Below, piece by piece: positions 3,159 to 10,733 of a stretch of 37,036 nt of DNA. A program made the translations under genes and the position numbers. This DNA comes from Bacteroidota bacterium (GTDB taxonomy: Bacteria > Bacteroidota > Bacteroidia > Bacteroidales > FEN-979): positions 1 through 37,036 of the forward strand of contig VGGL01000018.1 in the NCBI GenBank assembly GCA_016868575.1. Direction: 5' to 3'. Positions within the stretch are counted from its first letter, which is position 1; every line of letters begins with the position of its first letter. The notes beneath the pieces were generated by a model. It made no database searches, was not told where the DNA came from, and saw only the letters and a list, made by a program, of their open reading frames with translations.

Positions 3159-3275
3159 ATGAAAACGAACAAAAATCATCACGATCTTGACCTCTGGAAG
3201 GTGTCAATATCCTTTGACCGGATCCGGTCGATGATAGCGGGGTTGGTGAATGCCCTTCGGCGGCGTGAGGCGTGA
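3159..3275 (+). pseudogene. Remnant of a four-helix-bundle (S23/Avd-like) gene
   Basis: A reading frame starting MKTNKNHHDLDLWKVSISF resembles the N-terminus of Bacteroidota four-helix-bundle proteins (23S rRNA intervening-sequence protein or Avd family), which normally continue for about 115-130 residues. After roughly 19 residues the similarity is lost and the frame stops at codon 39. The downstream DNA (GATGCG, ATATCACCTATCACGG) resembles the low-complexity repeat next to it, which suggests that an internal deletion removed most of the gene. The assignment rests on a short N-terminal match from memory. I see no functional product. Confidence 0.5.
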
Positions 3276-3354
3276 TGCGTTGCATGATCTGCATATCACC
3301 TATCACGGCTCAATGACCATTTTAGTAAATCCTGATAAAGAAGCAGTTACAGTT

Positions 3355-3900
3355 ATGGATACAAGAATGAGTTTACCAGAAGAACTAATCATCAGGAATA
3401 TTTTCCTGATCCGTGATCTGAAAGTCATGATTGACCGCGATCTGGCAATGCTGTATGGGGTTGAAACAAGAATCCTAAATCAAGCAGTGAAGAGGAACAT
3501 CAAACGGTTTCCAATGGACTTTATGTTCCAAATGACAACAGCGGAAATGAAAGCATGGAAATCACAAATTGTGATATCCAACAGGGAGAGAATGGGTCTC
3601 CGGAAACCTCCTTATGTCTTTACTGAACTTGGTGTCGCAATGCTTTCAAGTGTATTGAATAGTGACAGGGCTATCATGGTGAATATTCAGATTATGAGGG
3701 TTTTTACCCGGATGAGGCAAATGGTGGCTTCTCATAAGGAGATATTAAAACAGCTTGAAGAGATAGTAAAAAAGGATATAGAACAAGACCGGAAGATATT
3801 ACAAATCTTTGAATACCTGAAGAGATTGGAGCAACTCCGGCAAGAGGAAGCATGCTTCCGGGAACGAAATCGAATTGGATTTAAGATCAAGGATAAGTGA
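3355..3900 (+). CDS. ORF6N domain-containing DNA-binding protein
   Basis: The product is about 181 residues from the ATG at 3355. It has the ORF6N (KilA-N related) core: IRDLKVMIDRDLAMLYGVET, then LNQAVKRNIKRFPMDFMFQ, then PYVFTELGVAMLSSVL. The C-terminus is a short, charged, probably coiled-coil helix. ORF6N proteins are common in phages and mobile islands and are thought to bind DNA. The frame is open back to 3250, but that stretch reads through repeat-like DNA (HDLHITYHG) and looks non-genic. I therefore prefer the ATG at 3355 or 3367; neither has a clear ribosome binding site, which is usual in this phylum. Direct repeats flank the gene. Confidence 0.85.
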   Translation: MDTRMSLPEELIIRNIFLIRDLKVMIDRDLAMLYGVETRILNQAVKRNIKRFPMDFMFQMTTAEMKAWKSQIVISNRERMGLRKPPYVFTELGVAMLSSVLNSDRAIMVNIQIMRVFTRMRQMVASHKEILKQLEEIVKKDIEQDRKILQIFEYLKRLEQLRQEEACFRERNRIGFKIKDK

Positions 3901-4003: not shown

Positions 4004-4168
4004 TTCTGTACAGACAATGCCAGTGATTCTGGAGCAAGGTTGCAACTATTCTTATGCTATATGACTGTATAAAATTATTTCTTTCTCCTGATCCGGAATG
4101 GTGGCGCTATTGATCCAAAATAATTTTATATATTTATAACTAACACTTACTGTTAATCAAAATTATAT

Positions 4169-4176
4169 TACCTTTG
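4169..4176 (+). promoter_or_regulatory. Promoter -7 element of the higBA-type operon
   Basis: TACCTTTG is a perfect match to the Bacteroidota -7 consensus TAnnTTTG. It ends only two bases before the GTG at 4179, so the predicted transcription start falls on or next to the start codon and the mRNA would be essentially leaderless. Confidence 0.6.
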
Positions 4177-4178
4177 CA

Positions 4179-4520
4179 GTGAACATTACTTTTACTGATA
4201 AGAAGTTGGAGAAACTTGCAAACGATGACCGGAAGATGATTGCAGCGCTTGGCAAGGTTCGGGCTACCATACTCAGGCGAAGGCTTACCCAGTTGTTGGA
4301 TGCCGTCACCCTGGAGGATGTAAGGCACTTGCCCGGCAACTACCATGAACTCAAGAACGACCGGAAAGGGCAATGGGGCTGCGACTTAGACCAACCGTAC
4401 AGGTTGGTTTTCACACCTCATGAGGACCCCATCCCTACCAATGAAGACGGCCAGTACATCTGGTTAGAAATAACAGGTGTAGAAGTAATAGAGATTGTAA
4501 ACTATCACAAAGAGAATTGA
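4179..4520 (+). CDS. higB: HigB/RelE-fold mRNA interferase toxin
   Basis: This 113-residue toxin of the HigB/RelE (plasmid maintenance killer) superfamily is expected to cleave mRNA at the ribosome. The order of motifs is typical: KKLEKLANDDRK at the N-terminus, RRRLTQLLDAVTLEDVRHLP, YHELKNDRKGQWGCDL, DQPYRLVFTP and a C-terminal EVIEIVNYH. GTG at 4179 is the most likely start because the family alignment begins with this MNI segment. It lies directly upstream of its antitoxin, with the toxin-first order that marks HigBA modules. The -7 element almost touches the start codon. Confidence 0.88.
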   Translation: MNITFTDKKLEKLANDDRKMIAALGKVRATILRRRLTQLLDAVTLEDVRHLPGNYHELKNDRKGQWGCDLDQPYRLVFTPHEDPIPTNEDGQYIWLEITGVEVIEIVNYHKEN

Positions 4521-4522
4521 AC

Positions 4523-5614
4523 ATGGCAAAGCAAAATCAATACTTTCCACAATCAAGACCCCATCCGGGAGAATCCTTAGCGGAGAAGCTGGAAGAAATG
4601 GAAATGGGGCCAAAAGAGTTTGCCCTGCGTTCCGGCAAGCCGGAAAAAACCATTATTGCTGTGCTCAAAGGCGAAAGCTCCATTACTCCCGACATGGCAG
4701 TGCAATTTGAGAATGTTACCAAGATCCCTGCCCACTTTTGGATGAACCACCAAAGATCTTATGATGAGTACATTGCAAGAGAGAAACGCAAAATCGCCAT
4801 TGACGAAGCGGTAGCATGGGCAAAGCAGTTTCCTTTAGCCGATATGATCAACAAAGGTTGGCTGCCACGCGTTAGCACCATTCAGGAAAAGACTATGGAA
4901 ATGCTGGCTTTCTTTGGCTTCTCCAGCCATAAAGCTTGGGAAGATTATTATTTCAAACAGCAGCTAAAAGTGGCTTTTCGCATATCACTGGCTCAAACCA
5001 AAGAGCCTTATGCCATTTCTGCATGGCTTCGTAAAGGTGAATTGCAGGCAACATCGTTAGATGCAAACGACTATTCAGAAAAAAAGTTTAAGGAAGCCCT
5101 GCCGCAGATAAAGTCCATCATGGCCAATCACCCCAATGGATTCTTTAATCAGTTACAAAACATTTGCCTCGAAGCAGGGGTAAAGGTTATATGCACTCCC
5201 TGCATTGATAGAGCTCCCATCAACGGTTCTACCCGTTGGCTCAACGATACGCCATTTATTCAGTTAACAGGTCGTTACAAACGCAACGATATTTTCTGGT
5301 TCACTTTCTTTCATGAATCAGGTCATATACTCTTACATGGAAAAAAAGATATTTTCCTGGAGAATCTCGATTATTCCGATAAGGACATGAGGAAAGAACA
5401 GGAAGCCGATGAATTTGCCATAAAATGGACATTGACCGAAAACGAAGAAACAGAAATATTATCAGCAGCCCCTTTACGTGAAATCGATATAAGTGCGTTT
5501 GCGAAGCAATTCAATACTCATCCTGCCATCATCATTGGCCGGCTGCAACACAAGAGGCATATTCCATTTTCTGTGGGTAAACAATTTTTGGCACCAATTG
5601 AGTTTGATCAATAA
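4523..5614 (+). CDS. higA: HigA-type antitoxin with C-terminal ImmA/IrrE-like peptidase domain
   Basis: The product is about 363 residues from the ATG at 4523, two bases after the toxin stop; a TTG at 4517 is possible but less likely. Residues 10-85 form the XRE-type HigA helix-turn-helix domain (HPGESLAEKLEEMEMGPKEF, then KPEKTIIAVLKG), the usual HigA core. It extends into a long C-terminal region with HESGH at 264-268, the zinc site of ImmA/IrrE (COG2856) peptidases. The protein is therefore a repressor and antitoxin fused to a peptidase-like domain, far longer than minimal HigA (about 90-100 residues). It is expected to neutralise the upstream toxin and repress the operon. What the peptidase domain does is unknown. 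Confidence 0.87.
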   Translation: MAKQNQYFPQSRPHPGESLAEKLEEMEMGPKEFALRSGKPEKTIIAVLKGESSITPDMAVQFENVTKIPAHFWMNHQRSYDEYIAREKRKIAIDEAVAWAKQFPLADMINKGWLPRVSTIQEKTMEMLAFFGFSSHKAWEDYYFKQQLKVAFRISLAQTKEPYAISAWLRKGELQATSLDANDYSEKKFKEALPQIKSIMANHPNGFFNQLQNICLEAGVKVICTPCIDRAPINGSTRWLNDTPFIQLTGRYKRNDIFWFTFFHESGHILLHGKKDIFLENLDYSDKDMRKEQEADEFAIKWTLTENEETEILSAAPLREIDISAFAKQFNTHPAIIIGRLQHKRHIPFSVGKQFLAPIEFDQ

Positions 5615-5813: not shown

Positions 5814-7109
5814 ATGGAACGGTTCGCATTAACATCTCTTTCGAAGTGGAAACAGTCAAAGAACAGAAAGCCTTTAATCATCCAGGGAGCCCGTCAGGTG
5901 GGCAAGACCTGGCTCATGCAGGAGTTCGGACGACGGGAATATGAGCAGGTCGCTTACATCAACTTCGAGTCTTCAGATTCCCTTAAATCAATCTTCAAGG
6001 AGAATTTTGATGTCAGCCGCCTGATCACCGCCTTTCAGATCGAGACCGGGATCCGGATACGCCCCGAAAATACCCTGCTTATTCTTGATGAGATACAGGA
6101 AGCGGAAAAGGGGATCACCTCCCTGAAATATTTCTGCGAGAATGCCCCGGAATATCATATCATGGCTGCCGGTTCATTGCTGGGGATCACAATACATCAG
6201 AAGACCTCCTCTCCGGTTGGCAAAGTTGATTTTCTGACCCTCTACCCTATGTCCTTCAATGAATTTTTACTGGCACTGGGTCAGGAACAACTGTATGAAC
6301 TGCTTAAGAGCAATGACTGGCCGATGATCACGAACTTCAAGGCAAAACTTATTGGCCATCTTCGTCATTATTATTTCATCGGAGGCATGCCCGAAGCTGT
6401 AAGCTCATTCATCAGTGAAAACGATTTTGATAAGGTCAGGTCTATCCAGAAAAGCATTTTATCGTCCTATGAGCATGATTTTTCAAAACATGTACCCGCG
6501 GAAATCATTCGCAGGATAAAAATGTTGTGGCAATCCATTCCTTCCCAACTATCAAAAGAGAATAAGAAATTCATCTACGGGGTGGTTAAACAAGGCGGCA
6601 GGGCCAAGGAGTTCGAGTTATCTTTAGCCTGGCTGACTGATTGCGGCCTGGTACATAAAATACATCGTATTTCGAAAGCAGCCATTCCACTGGTTGCTTA
6701 CCAGGATGCTTCCGCCTTCAAGCTGTTTATCCTCGATGTCGGGCTCTTGTCGGCCATGGGCGACCTGACCAAACAAACGATTCTCCAGGGAAACTCCATC
6801 TTCAGCGAGTTCAAAGGATCCCTCGCCGAACAGTTTGTCCTGCAACAGCTGAAAATACAGCAAAATATCCAGGTTTATTATTGGTCATCGGATACTGCCC
6901 GGGCTGAACTTGACTTTGTAATCCGGCACAATGACCGGATCATTCCGATCGAAGTAAAGGCGGAGGAAAACCTGAAAGCAAAAAGTTTGAAATCCTTTTA
7001 TGAAAAGTTCAATCCCAAAGTTGCAGTCAGGACTTCCATGTCGGATTACCGCAATGATGGCTGGCTGGTGAATGTGCCGTTATATGCTCTTGAATCGTTT
7101 CGGTTCTGA
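5814..7109 (+). CDS. AAA ATPase with DUF4143 C-terminal domain
   Basis: The protein has 431 residues. The N-terminal AAA_14 ATPase has Walker A GARQVGKT at 25-32 and Walker B LLILDEIQE near 88-96, and a GSLLG sensor-like segment follows. The C-terminal half is the DUF4143 domain, with an ELDFVI...IPIEVKA pattern that recalls a PD-(D/E)xK nuclease fold (DF...EVK). These ATPases are abundant in Bacteroidota accessory DNA, and their role is unresolved. It stands alone between the HigBA module and a decayed gene, with its own promoter. The upstream DNA shares motifs with the hipB regulatory region, so co-regulation is possible. No signal peptide is visible; it should be cytoplasmic. Confidence 0.88.
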   Translation: MERFALTSLSKWKQSKNRKPLIIQGARQVGKTWLMQEFGRREYEQVAYINFESSDSLKSIFKENFDVSRLITAFQIETGIRIRPENTLLILDEIQEAEKGITSLKYFCENAPEYHIMAAGSLLGITIHQKTSSPVGKVDFLTLYPMSFNEFLLALGQEQLYELLKSNDWPMITNFKAKLIGHLRHYYFIGGMPEAVSSFISENDFDKVRSIQKSILSSYEHDFSKHVPAEIIRRIKMLWQSIPSQLSKENKKFIYGVVKQGGRAKEFELSLAWLTDCGLVHKIHRISKAAIPLVAYQDASAFKLFILDVGLLSAMGDLTKQTILQGNSIFSEFKGSLAEQFVLQQLKIQQNIQVYYWSSDTARAELDFVIRHNDRIIPIEVKAEENLKAKSLKSFYEKFNPKVAVRTSMSDYRNDGWLVNVPLYALESFRF

Positions 7110-7178
7110 TTTCAAAATCGTGACGCATATACTTTGAGTGAAAAAATTGCTAATATTGCTTGACAAATTCCACCTCAT

Positions 7179-7760
7179 ATGAAGATTTATTAAATACATA
7201 TCTCACTGAGATATATCTCTCCAAAAATCCGGAGAAGACTGCTTGTTCCGGCCAATATTTCACTACAGGACTTTCACAAGGTCATTCAGAGCAGCATGGG
7301 CTGGTGGAACAGCCACCTTCATCAATTTATAAAAGGCGAGAAATTTTACCTTGAGAAAACCGAAGACGATGATTTTTGGGAGGATAAGATTCATGTCGAT
7401 TACTTAATGCTGAAACTATCCGATTTGCTTAAGAAAGAGAAGGACGAAATCGGATATGAGTATGATTTTGGTGATGGCTGGCTCCACAATATTGTCCTCG
7501 AGAAAATCCCGGTTTCGGATCCGGGTGTTAATAACCCTCAATGTACAGCCGGTAAGAGGAACTGCCCCCCGGAAGATTGCGGCGGACCCTTCGGCTATTC
7601 AAATTTGTTAACGGTCATTTCAAATCCCCGGCATGAAGAATACGAAGAAATGATGAAATGGACAGGTGGCAACTTTGATCCTGAATCATTCGACAAAGAG
7701 ACCATCAATGATTTACTGAAAAAAGAAGATTTTGGAATCGTACCGTTCAGATTATGTTAA
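7179..7760 (+). pseudogene. pRiA4b ORF-3-like protein gene with a nonsense codon at position 5
   Basis: The plasmid pRiA4b ORF-3 family is a small domain of unknown function common in mobile DNA. From the ATG at 7179 the frame reads M-K-I-Y-stop-I-H-I-S-L-R-Y and then continues open to 7760 through the whole domain: SLQDFHKVIQSSMGWWN, then YEYDFGDGWLHNIVLEK, then CPPEDCGGPFGY. Family members usually begin MKIYQI, so the TAA at 7191-7193 looks like CAA (Gln) changed by one base. The usually conserved Trp of the IWRR segment is also Arg here (cgg). Restart at the ATG at 7296 would drop the first strands and is unlikely to give a folded protein. A near-consensus -7 element (TAATATTG, 7151-7158) precedes it. 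Confidence 0.75.
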
Positions 7761-7889: not shown

Positions 7890-8897
7890 CTACCCGGATA
7901 TTAATCGATTCAACCTGGTCCGGTAGTGAAGCAGGTAATCTCTTTTACTTTTTTCGTTAAGAAATGAGTTGTGAATGAGCTTGTCGACCCGGGGTTGATC
8001 TTCAAGGAAAGGGGCGCTGATCTTTTGAATCCTTGATTCATTCACCCCTATTCTTTTCCCGAATTCAACGAAATCAAGAAAAGTTGTATATCCTGTTTTT
8101 TGAAATTCATCCGATATGTAGTCATCGATGAACAATCCTTTATCCAGGGCGAAATCCGTATCATCCACATGGATCCGGGTATTGATAAGGTCATAGGCTG
8201 GACTTAGCAGGTAGTCTCCGCTATCGCTTTCAAGCAGGGCGAAATTCTTCAGATGAGCATCCCCGTTGGAGAACAGATAATTGAAAAGGACCATTGCAAA
8301 GAATTTCTCAATCTCGATTCTCCAGGCAGGCACATACCTGCGTATCAGGGCTCCGACTTCTTCATAACTAAAATCATATTTGAAGTTTGTTCCGGCATTG
8401 TCGGATGATTTACCGGCCAGTGAGGCAAAATCCTCCTTTCCCCGCCTGGAGCCATTTTCCTTTACATCAAAGCGCCTGGTAATATATGCCTGGGTGCCGT
8501 CCTTAAAAAAGATCAGAGCGTTTTCCGCCGTGTTGATGTTGAATACCTGCCTTGCGATTTGCATGGTCAGGTGTTCGTTCCCAGGAACCTGTCCGGGATT
8601 GCGTACATCTCTGGGAATGGGTTTCAGGATGTAGGTCCCTTGCTCCCCTTCAAGCGTCAACCTTAAAATATTTTTCTCCAGCAGCATGCTGAGCTTCTCC
8701 TGAACGCCGGAGATTGATATCCTTTTGCGGTTATCCATGAATTCCCTGGCGACTTCTTCATCATGATAAGGTGTGTCGTACTGAAGGAGATGGGATACCC
8801 TCTTCCCATTGAACATCCTTCGGAGACATACCGGGCTGTAAGTTGAAAAGCCTTCTGCAAGGGTTCCCGGACAATTTTTCAGCTCATTCAGTTTCAT
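7890..8897 (-). CDS. hipT: HipT-type serine/threonine kinase toxin (HipA C-terminal fold)
   Basis: This 335-residue kinase of the HipA family lacks the N-terminal coupling domain, which is encoded separately just upstream (hipS-like). Visible kinase parts are ILKPIP with the ATP-binding Lys near 92, NGDAHLKN with catalytic Asp 213, and SPAYDL with metal-binding Asp 236. The Gly-rich loop contains S-I-S-G (61-64), the Ser-x-Ser arrangement that HipT kinases autophosphorylate. The known E. coli HipT is a similarly short kinase that targets tryptophanyl-tRNA synthetase; whether this one has the same target cannot be read from sequence. Its start overlaps the end of hipS by 14 bases, so translation is probably coupled. 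It is last in the operon. Confidence 0.86.
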   Translation of the reverse strand: MKLNELKNCPGTLAEGFSTYSPVCLRRMFNGKRVSHLLQYDTPYHDEEVAREFMDNRKRISISGVQEKLSMLLEKNILRLTLEGEQGTYILKPIPRDVRNPGQVPGNEHLTMQIARQVFNINTAENALIFFKDGTQAYITRRFDVKENGSRRGKEDFASLAGKSSDNAGTNFKYDFSYEEVGALIRRYVPAWRIEIEKFFAMVLFNYLFSNGDAHLKNFALLESDSGDYLLSPAYDLINTRIHVDDTDFALDKGLFIDDYISDEFQKTGYTTFLDFVEFGKRIGVNESRIQKISAPFLEDQPRVDKLIHNSFLNEKSKRDYLLHYRTRLNRLISG

Positions 8898-9222
8898 CCT
8901 TCTGTATTGGTTTTATTGTAATTGCCCCGATCGTGTCATACCTCGCGGTTGCAATCAACAACCCGAAATAATCCTTTTCATCGATCTTCAGCATTTTACT
9001 TTGAAGCTTGTGATTGAATCCCTCGCTGAGCATATTAAAGAAGAACGGGAACAGGCTTTCATTGCTGTATTCCTGCCTGCTTTTCGGTAGCGTAAGACTG
9101 ACCGGCGGTTTCCGGTCATTGACGAACCAGGAATCGTCATAACGGAAACGATATTCATTGCGGGAAATCTCAGTAAGTACTCCTGCCAGCTCGCCGTTAC
9201 AAAATACTTCCACTGCCCTCAT
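8884..9222 (-). CDS. hipS: HipS-like antitoxin (stand-alone HipA N-terminal domain)
   Basis: This 112-residue protein corresponds to the HipA N-terminal 'couple' domain: VEVFCNGELAGVLTEI, PPVSLTLPKSRQEY, LFPFFFNMLSEG and an IGAITI ending. In long-form HipA this segment is fused to the kinase; here it ends before the kinase gene begins. This matches the tripartite HipBST arrangement, in which HipS is the protein that neutralises the HipT kinase. The start at 9222 lies three bases after the hipB stop, and its end overlaps hipT by 14 bases, so all three genes form one transcript. The short length and the separate start codon argue against a simple frameshift in hipA. Confidence 0.82.
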   Translation of the reverse strand: MRAVEVFCNGELAGVLTEISRNEYRFRYDDSWFVNDRKPPVSLTLPKSRQEYSNESLFPFFFNMLSEGFNHKLQSKMLKIDEKDYFGLLIATARYDTIGAITIKPIQKDETE

Positions 9223-9225
9223 CTT

Positions 9226-9438
9226 TTATGGATTTGTCTTTTTTACTTCCAGTTTCAACTCCATACCCAACACGTCGGCCAGCTTGTTCAGTGTTTCAAA
9301 TGTGGGATTTCCTTTGCCACTTTCAATGGCTTTCAATGTTCGGAGGCTCACTCCGGATAATTCTGCCAGGTATTCCTGGTTTACTTTCAACGCTTCACGG
9401 CGATCCTTCAGCGCTTTTATTAAATCTTCCTGGTGCAT
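9226..9438 (-). CDS. hipB: HipB-type XRE repressor
   Basis: This 70-residue helix-turn-helix protein of the XRE family is the first gene of the HipBST operon. The fold is clear in LKVNQEYLAELSGVSLRTLK, followed by AIESGKGNPTFETLNKLADV. The ATG at 9438 is preferred over a TTG at 9459, because the latter lies inside the -7 promoter element. It should bind operator DNA around its own promoter and repress the operon, alone or with HipS and HipT. Inverted copies of GCAATAAAATGC flank the promoter, one overlapping the start codon. The C-terminal tail (LKLEVKKTNP) is short, as in other HipB proteins. Confidence 0.88.
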   Translation of the reverse strand: MHQEDLIKALKDRREALKVNQEYLAELSGVSLRTLKAIESGKGNPTFETLNKLADVLGMELKLEVKKTNP

Positions 9439-9446
9439 TTTATTGC
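9435..9446. promoter_or_regulatory. Candidate HipB operator half-site overlapping the hipB start
   Basis: GCATTTTATTGC is the exact reverse complement of 9495-9506 (GCAATAAAATGC). Together they flank the hipB promoter, which suggests repressor sites on both sides. Confidence 0.45.
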
Positions 9447-9456
9447 TCTTTTTGTG

Positions 9457-9464
9457 CAAATATA
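9457..9464 (-). promoter_or_regulatory. Promoter -7 element of hipBST
   Basis: On the minus strand this reads TATATTTG, a perfect TAnnTTTG, 18 bases before the hipB ATG at 9438. It lies within a 16-base identity to the promoter of the AAA ATPase at 5791-5806. Confidence 0.65.
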
Positions 9465-9493
9465 CGGATAATAATTAGTAATGTTTCAAATAG

Positions 9494-9517
9494 TGCAATA
9501 AAATGCTCTTTATTGCA
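9494..9517. promoter_or_regulatory. Candidate HipB operator palindrome
   Basis: TGCAATAAA (9494-9502) and TTTATTGCA (9509-9517) are a perfect 9-bp inverted repeat around a 6-base spacer, placed about 30 bp upstream of the hipB -7 element. The position and symmetry fit a dimeric XRE repressor; binding is inferred. Confidence 0.55.
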
Positions 9518-9521
9518 AAAT

Positions 9522-9588
9522 CCGGTGATATTGACCACCTAAAACCGGGGGATGTTGATCACCTCGCTTCCGGAGTAGATTGACCACC
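9522..9588. mobile_element. Three tandem repeats resembling an insertion-sequence end
   Basis: Three imperfect units begin with CCGG and end in TTGA(C/T)CACC: 9522-9544, 9545-9569 and 9570-9588. Iterated repeats of this kind are a feature of IS21-family termini. No transposase is present, so this is a solo end or a scar. The hipA-like frame begins immediately after the third unit and lacks its N-terminus, so the element probably caused the truncation. The IS family is an inference. Confidence 0.5.
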
Positions 9589-10733
9589 CTCTCAGAGACC
9601 ATTTTTCTTAATGGGCGTATCTACAGTTTTCCGGACATCCCTGCTGAAACATTCAGAGGACTTCCCGGTCTGCTGTCCGATAGCCTTCCCGATAAATTCG
9701 GACAACAGTTGATCAATACCTGGTTGGCGATCCATGGTCGTAATGAAATTAGCATAAATCCTGTTGAAATGCTGTGTTATATGGGTAAACGCGGGATGGG
9801 GGCCCTCGAGTTTCGTCCGGCAACACGCATGGAAAGAGGATCTTCAAATGTGCTTGAAATTTCAGAGCTTGTGAACCTTGCTCAGCAGGCGGTCAACCGG
9901 AAAAGCGAGTTCAGCGCTAATATTTCAGAAGATCAAAAGCAGGGCATGCTCGATATCATCAGGGTAGGCACTTCAGCCGGTGGCGCCCGTGCCAAGGCTG
10001 TGATTGCAATCAACAGGCATGGGACGGTCAGGTCGGGTCAGCTCGACGCCCCTGATGGATATTCCCACTGGCTTATCAAGCTGGATGGGATTATGGATGA
10101 GCAACTGGGTGATCCCAAAGGTATGGCCGTATTGAGTATGCCTGTCACTTAATGGCTAAAGATTGCGGCATATCTATGACTGAATGCAGGCTCCTGGAAG
10201 AGAATGGACGGGCCCACTTCATGACCCGCCGTTTCGACCGTCCCGGTCGTAATTCAAAACTGCATATGCTCACCTTGTGTGGCCTTTGTCATTATGATTA
10301 CAACAATCCCCTGGCTTACAGTTATGAGCAGGCATTTCAGGCCATGCGCAGCATCAGACTACCTTACCCCGATGCCGATCGGCTTTACCGCAGGATGGTC
10401 TTTAATGTCATTGGCGTTAATAACGATGATCATGCAAAAAACATTTCATTTCTGATGGACAGATCAGGCCAGTGGAGGCTTGCGCCGGCGTACGATTTGA
10501 CTTATGCCTTCAAGCCATCTCATAAATACCTTGCACAACATCAACTTTCCATTAATGGAAAGCAATCAGAGATAAATCATAACGATTTAATGTTGGTGGC
10601 TGAACGGATGAATATCAGGAAGTCCGGAGAAATCATTGACCATATCTCCGATGTAATTGGAAGCTGGCCGAGATATGCTGCTGAGGCCGGTATCCCAAAA
10701 AGCCAGATTAAGGCGATTGGTAAAACCCATTAA
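9589..10733 (+). pseudogene. hipA: Long-form HipA kinase gene, 5' truncated and frameshifted
   Basis: Two consecutive frames together encode most of a long-form HipA Ser/Thr kinase toxin. The first (to 10152) has ETFRGLPGLLSDSLPDKFGQ, the Gly-rich loop VGTSAGGARAKAV and GYSHWLIKLDG. The second (10152-10733) has HFMTRRFDR, NNDDHAKN (catalytic Asp) and LAPAYDLTYAF. The break sits at 10122-10123: adding one T to GGT-ATGGC gives GGT-TAT-GGC and restores an unbroken DPKGYGRIEYA...LMAKDCG. About 50-60 N-terminal residues and the usual partner hipB are missing; the frame instead emerges from the tandem repeats at 9522-9588. The gene is of a different HipA type from the neighbouring HipT and is dead unless the frameshift is an assembly error. 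Confidence 0.82.

Follow-up and report, generated by a model that had tools for sequence, protein, structure and literature searches.

The window, a 37,036-nucleotide stretch of DNA that makes up a complete contig of a 2.84-Mb, 224-contig Bacteroidota genome, carries a locus that we read, with a probability of roughly 80%, as an intact tripartite toxin-antitoxin module, type II and of the HipBST kind, belonging to a Bacteroidota-centred lineage apart from both the E. coli O127 and the Legionella types. HipBST modules were first described mainly in Gammaproteobacteria (PMC6581861), and a second report describes Legionella-type homologues as widespread across the FCB superphylum, with a Bacteroides HipBA located near one of them (PMC10653801). 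HipBST is thus already known in Bacteroidota, and the lineage described here is a variant of it. Within the accessible portions of the HipBST literature we found no description of its combination of an S-psi-S loop without the HipS Trp, a short HipB and a 61-bp operator ladder over the start codon, and in that literature we found no experimental work on Bacteroidota Hip modules. The features of the locus are collected in Table 1.

Table 1. Features of the hipBST locus and of the adjoining DNA, in window coordinates
Feature	Position	Strand	Description
hipT	7890..8897	-	335-aa HipA-like Ser/Thr kinase without N-subdomain 1, putative toxin; Pfam HipA_C E 5e-37
S61-I62-S63	8709..8717	-	Gly-rich loop of HipT; two predicted autophosphorylation serines
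hipS	8884..9222	-	112-aa stand-alone HipA N-subdomain-1 protein, putative antitoxin; Couple_hipA E 1.6e-20, NCBIfam TIGR03071 E 2.8e-27
hipS stop/hipT start overlap	8884..8897	-	14 bases, ATGAAACTGAATGA, read from sequence
hipB	9226..9438	-	70-aa XRE/Cro-type helix-turn-helix repressor, ATG 9438-9436; Pfam HTH_3 E 3.9e-15, TIGR03070 under cut-off
candidate operator O1	9433..9448	-	GAGCAATAAAATGCAC; hipB start codon inside
promoter-like element	9457..9464	-	TATATTTG; fits TAnnTTTG, lineage consensus keeps TA..TTT here
TTTG	9487-9490		possible -33 box
candidate operator O2	9493..9508	-	GAGCATTTTATTGCAC; 60 bases upstream of O1
junction	9518..9589		hipBST upstream DNA stops just above O2; unrelated sequence with TTGACCACC repeats starts
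decayed full-length-type hipA	9580..10733	+	N-terminus missing, frame broken near 10152

On re-reading the sequence, the open reading frames, their coordinates, the hipB-hipS-hipT order and the 14-base overlap proved to be as given in a preliminary description of this DNA; within ATGAAACTGAATGA the hipT ATG lies at 8897-8895 and the hipS TGA at 8886-8884. The XRE repressor that it had placed ahead of hipS is confirmed by the HTH_3 match, with a refined start: the ATG at 9438 is most likely used rather than an in-frame TTG at 9459, from which hipB would encode 77 amino acids instead of 70. The only HipA_C genes in this genome are hipT and the adjoining hipA remnant.

The separation of hipS from hipT holds throughout the loci examined. 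Both genes stand apart, in the order hipB-hipS-hipT, in the window and in 99 of 99 relatives (100/100 loci, 0 fused); the fused hipST frame in close relatives that the preliminary description had named as contrary evidence was searched for and not found. One survey took in 61 genomes from the family and order, in which all fetched HipT relatives carry separate hipB-hipS-hipT. Another 80 loci, 55-76% identical, came from scanning 84,980 species genomes; they belong to Bacteroidota, Ignavibacteria, Balneolia and Delongbacteria, and each of them has the genes split and arranged in this way. The genes are likewise split in additional lineage members drawn from a phylum sample and from plasmids (of Bacteroides thetaiotaomicron, Parabacteroides, Flammeovirga, Runella and Arcobacter); 50,697 phage records gave 0 matches. 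Apart from an occasional HipA, no conserved partner genes were found around hipBST loci. Two sets of candidate exceptions were rejected. A 434-aa open frame in genome G195 is not a fused HipST, its N-terminal part not being readable as HipS in that frame, and has the appearance of a GC-rich gene extended from stop to stop; three full-length HipA proteins of 414-418 aa that match the HipT profile (L121, L122 and L125) fall outside the HipT clade in the tree.

The hipS/hipT overlap is 4 bases long, an ATGA, in 66/89 lineage members, and the 14-base form is shared by four, including the window. The earlier statement that the overlap is not that of a frameshift is upheld by the 99 split relatives, but the 14-base form is a minority form and not the typical one. 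A frameshifted hipA or an assembly error might well leave an overlap of this appearance; such an artificial split is nevertheless refuted by the survey and retains virtually no probability, since 99/99 relatives are split, the HipT start and the HipS end are conserved, and overlaps of 4, 8 and 14 bases recur. In comparisons of the window with three of its nearest relatives, hipT shows a pN of ~0.15 against a saturated pS of 0.79-0.88, which indicates strong purifying selection on hipT. The presence of 99 related loci split in the same order, with none fused, thus identifies a HipBST-type module rather than a broken hipA, and the separate genes of a tripartite locus proposed at the outset are borne out.

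A tree built from 54 concatenated HipS-HipT and HipA proteins unites the window lineage in one clade (support 99/93), apart from both the Lp/TVT clade and E. coli-type proteins; all split HipTs lie apart from HipA (89/85). The free tree places the window lineage beside the E. coli type (95/91), and AU tests reject neither its union with the Legionella type nor that with HipA (p 0.27-0.36). The Lp clade is represented in this tree by its Bacteroidota members (397 bits to Legionella HipT), which take the place of the Legionella protein. In a PDB sequence search, Legionella HipT is the best match of the window HipT (110 bits, 1.5e-30), followed by E. coli HipT at 59 bits (3.5e-15). Membership of the Lp HipT clade, as the best PDB match would suggest, is rejected on the grounds of the separate clade (99/93) and of these 110 bits as against the 397 bits with which the other HipBST type of the same bacterial family (L013-L015, L018, L019; L014 tested) matches Legionella HipT. 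An Aliivibrio plasmid HipT gives 318 bits to E. coli HipT. The window lineage is present in 14 of 296 evenly sampled Bacteroidota genomes (>300 bits, own genome counted), and the other lineage in more of them. Judged by these sequence relationships, the window HipBST belongs to a distinct and widespread Bacteroidota-centred HipT lineage outside the Legionella and E. coli types.

HipT has the sequence features expected of a HipA-like kinase without N-subdomain 1. The S-I-S Gly-rich loop and both catalytic Asp residues of the preliminary description were located at positions 61-63, at Asp213 (NGDAHLKN) and at Asp236 (PAYDL), the latter two corresponding to the catalytic and Mg-binding residues in conserved motifs. 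The E. coli-type S-psi-S double serine is thus present as SIS 61-63; it is kept in 89/89 lineage HipTs, and S61, S63 and G64 are invariant in A1. The AlphaFold monomer has a pLDDT of 83 and a best Foldseek PDB match to the HipT crystal structure 7wcf (TM 0.79), with residues 61-66 of the Gly-rich loop as the only listed stretch with a pLDDT below 50. E. coli HipT is phosphorylated at both equivalent serines (PMC6581861, PMC10627512), whereas Legionella HipT has only one of them (PMC10653801). By phosphorylating its own S61 and S63, HipT probably adjusts its kinase activity and its binding to HipS. The KMSKS/KLSKR-type loops of TrpS and GltX are known Hip target loops (PMC6581861); the host genome's own TrpS carries KMSKS and its own GltX carries KLSKR. 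The KMSKS of the host TrpS shows only that a candidate site exists, not the identity of the target, and the caution first voiced over TrpS was right. The lineage stands as a warning that Bacteroidota HipT should not be annotated as a TrpS kinase.

HipS is by domain, PDB and fold matches a stand-alone homologue of HipA N-subdomain 1. It matches Legionella HipS (1.7e-13) and E. coli HipS (2.9e-9) in the PDB sequence search, and its AlphaFold monomer (pLDDT 88) fits the HipS crystal structure 7vkb_B best (TM 0.82); HipS and HipT are about 23-36% identical to the solved structures. E. coli HipS requires Trp65 for the neutralisation of HipT (PMC10627512). The corresponding position is occupied by F69 in the window HipS, which thus lacks the E. 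coli-type wedge, and among 89 lineage HipS proteins by Val in 63, Ala in 11, Thr in 5, Phe in 3 and other residues in 7, with Trp in 0/89. The flanking residues E67, G68 and N70 are invariant (89/89). A TVT group of Bacteroidota HipBST retains the HipS Trp (6/6), so the serines and the Trp vary independently, and the E. coli wedge is not to be assumed for the window lineage. The locus had been likened to the E. coli system: gene order and the S-x-S double serine agree with that, but the lineage (by tree and PDB scores) and the HipS Trp do not.

It is reasonable to infer from both studied systems that HipS, not HipB, blocks HipT; the small separate HipS probably restrains HipT, a putative growth-stopping kinase. 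By homology, HipS as the missing HipA N-subdomain would dock on HipT at the same site and hold the Gly-rich loop away from the active site, a task that a smaller residue (Phe69 here, mostly Val) and the invariant E67-G68-x-N70 turn may perform in place of a Trp wedge. Alternatively, the locus could be a HipA-like two-component system in disguise, in which the kinase has HipS as its constitutive structural half and the real antitoxin is HipB. We consider this improbable. The Trp to which E. coli HipS owes its inhibitory action is indeed missing, and Legionella HipS-HipT is described as shaped almost like one HipA chain; the same report, however, has Legionella HipS neutralising HipT though it too lacks the Trp (PMC10653801). 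Furthermore, HipB, at 70 aa as against 107 aa in E. coli HipBST (PMC6581861), consists of little beyond its helix-turn-helix domain. We therefore retain the tripartite reading, with HipS as the putative antitoxin.

The hipB promoters of the lineage carry palindromic 16-18-mers near -11, -72 and -133 relative to the aligned hipB start, that is, in 61-bp steps. A palindrome score of at least 7/9 is reached at these positions in 24/89, 64/88 and 39/88 loci, respectively, as against 3/263 at control offsets. Across both lineages together, 51/99 loci have two or more additional copies of the best palindromic word, as against 9/495 Markov-generated sequences. The candidate operators fall into two sequence classes, AGTGC-N8-GCACT in the window and ATCAC-N8-GTGAT in most loci, and in 79/89 lineage members an ATG falls within the right half of O1. 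Between O1 and O2 lies an element fitting TAnnTTTG, the Bacteroidota -7 promoter form. In the proposed scheme these evenly spaced palindromes, the first of which covers the hipB start codon, would be bound by HipB together with HipS and HipT, and the operon thereby repressed. A perfect inverted repeat with 9-bp arms, TGCAATAAA-N6-TTTATTGCA (9494-9517), overlaps O2 with a different centre and is absent from the nearest relatives. TVT-type loci (L016, L017, L020 and L022) carry TATACCC-N4-GGGTATA operators upstream of hipB in 40-41 bp steps.

The window retains O1 and O2. By comparison with L004, L023 and L024, the junction falls on the O3 position, which now scores 2/9 as a palindrome and has been replaced by other DNA; with its third operator lost, regulation of this locus may differ. 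This loss, and the decay of the adjoining hipA to a pseudogene, would suit a decaying or silenced locus in which frames are intact and regulation was broken after the adjoining rearrangement. That all three genes are intact with full motifs and under strong purifying selection against nearest relatives, and that the promoter-like element, O1 and O2 remain, makes such a locus very improbable, and we keep to the reading of an intact module. The junction sequence, with its TTGACCACC / TTGATCACC repeats, is present in a single copy in this genome, is absent from 40 family genomes and has no plasmid match; that it is the end of a lost insertion sequence is perhaps the case, but with no other copy in these sets this stays a guess.

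The hipA remnant matches Couple_hipA at 48-98/99 only, continues with HipA_C in the next frame and groups with Bacteroidota HipA; it is probably associated with, and not part of, the hipBST module. A HipA-type gene lies within a few kb of hipBST in five other loci of 100 (L023, L025, L034, L039 and L064), a proximity that looks greater than scattered hipA genes would give. At 4140-5614 (+), 2.3 kb from hipBST, a HigB-like toxin gene (weak Pfam match) precedes one for a HigA-type antitoxin that carries a fused IrrE/M78 peptidase-like domain, a HigB/HigA-type toxin-antitoxin pair. A truncated type I restriction R subunit with a YgjP metallopeptidase and ORF6N-domain, AAA_14/DUF4143 ATPase and PRiA4_ORF3-like proteins are encoded at 2-2961, 3250-3900 and 5814-7760 (+), which gives the left quarter of the window the look of a cluster of defence or mobile genes. 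Doubled hipT genes occur elsewhere: Aliivibrio fischeri plasmid pCG103-32 (L104) carries an E. coli-type hipB-hipS-hipT and, directly after it, a second hipT without its own hipS, with SPTGQQ versus SISGYQ in the Gly-rich loop region of this second hipT, and a Saprospiraceae genome (L096, 4986-7855) has a pair of hipT genes, related in type, within 2 kb.

E. coli has both the double serine and the Trp wedge of HipS, and Legionella has neither. A lineage with the serines and without the Trp separates two features whose roles have so far been argued only from E. coli, and, being unlike both laboratory-studied versions, it does not simply allow the E. coli mechanism to be transferred. Tentatively, and at somewhat less than even odds, it may represent a third functional HipBST type of Bacteroidota and their neighbours, with both serines, Trp-free neutralisation, probably a target of its own and a HipB acting on a three-operator ladder over the hipB start. 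The ladder offers a concrete, testable regulatory model for Bacteroidota Hip modules.

Legionella pneumophila HipBST (lpg2368-2370; PDB 7vkb, 8ezr) is the best sequence and fold match for the window HipS and HipT, and shares with the lineage the gene order, a HipS without the Trp wedge and three evenly spaced operators upstream of hipB, but HipT is only ~30% identical and has S-psi-S here versus S-psi-Q there. The three Legionella operators have 53-bp gaps, with O1 24 nt upstream of hipB (PMC10653801); the ladder is thus common to both, whereas the layout differs, with 61-bp steps and O1 on the start codon in our lineage. E. coli O127:H6 HipBST (PDB 7ab3-7ab5) agrees with the window module in gene order, in having HipA split, in the S-I-S double serine and roughly in HipT length, but differs in its HipS Trp65, its clade and a HipT only ~23% identical by fold alignment. 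E. coli K-12 HipBA shares the kinase fold and motifs and an XRE HipB; unlike in HipBA, the N-subdomain is here a separate protein, and the HipT match is much weaker (27 bits). Finally, the second Bacteroidota HipBST lineage, of Lp/TVT type (e.g. L012-L022), has the same gene order and occurs in the same bacterial families, but is 30-35% identical to the window HipT and carries an SPsiQ, TPsiT or APsiT loop (SPsiQ, TVT, AVT), a HipS with PEGW or PEGI, and other operators.
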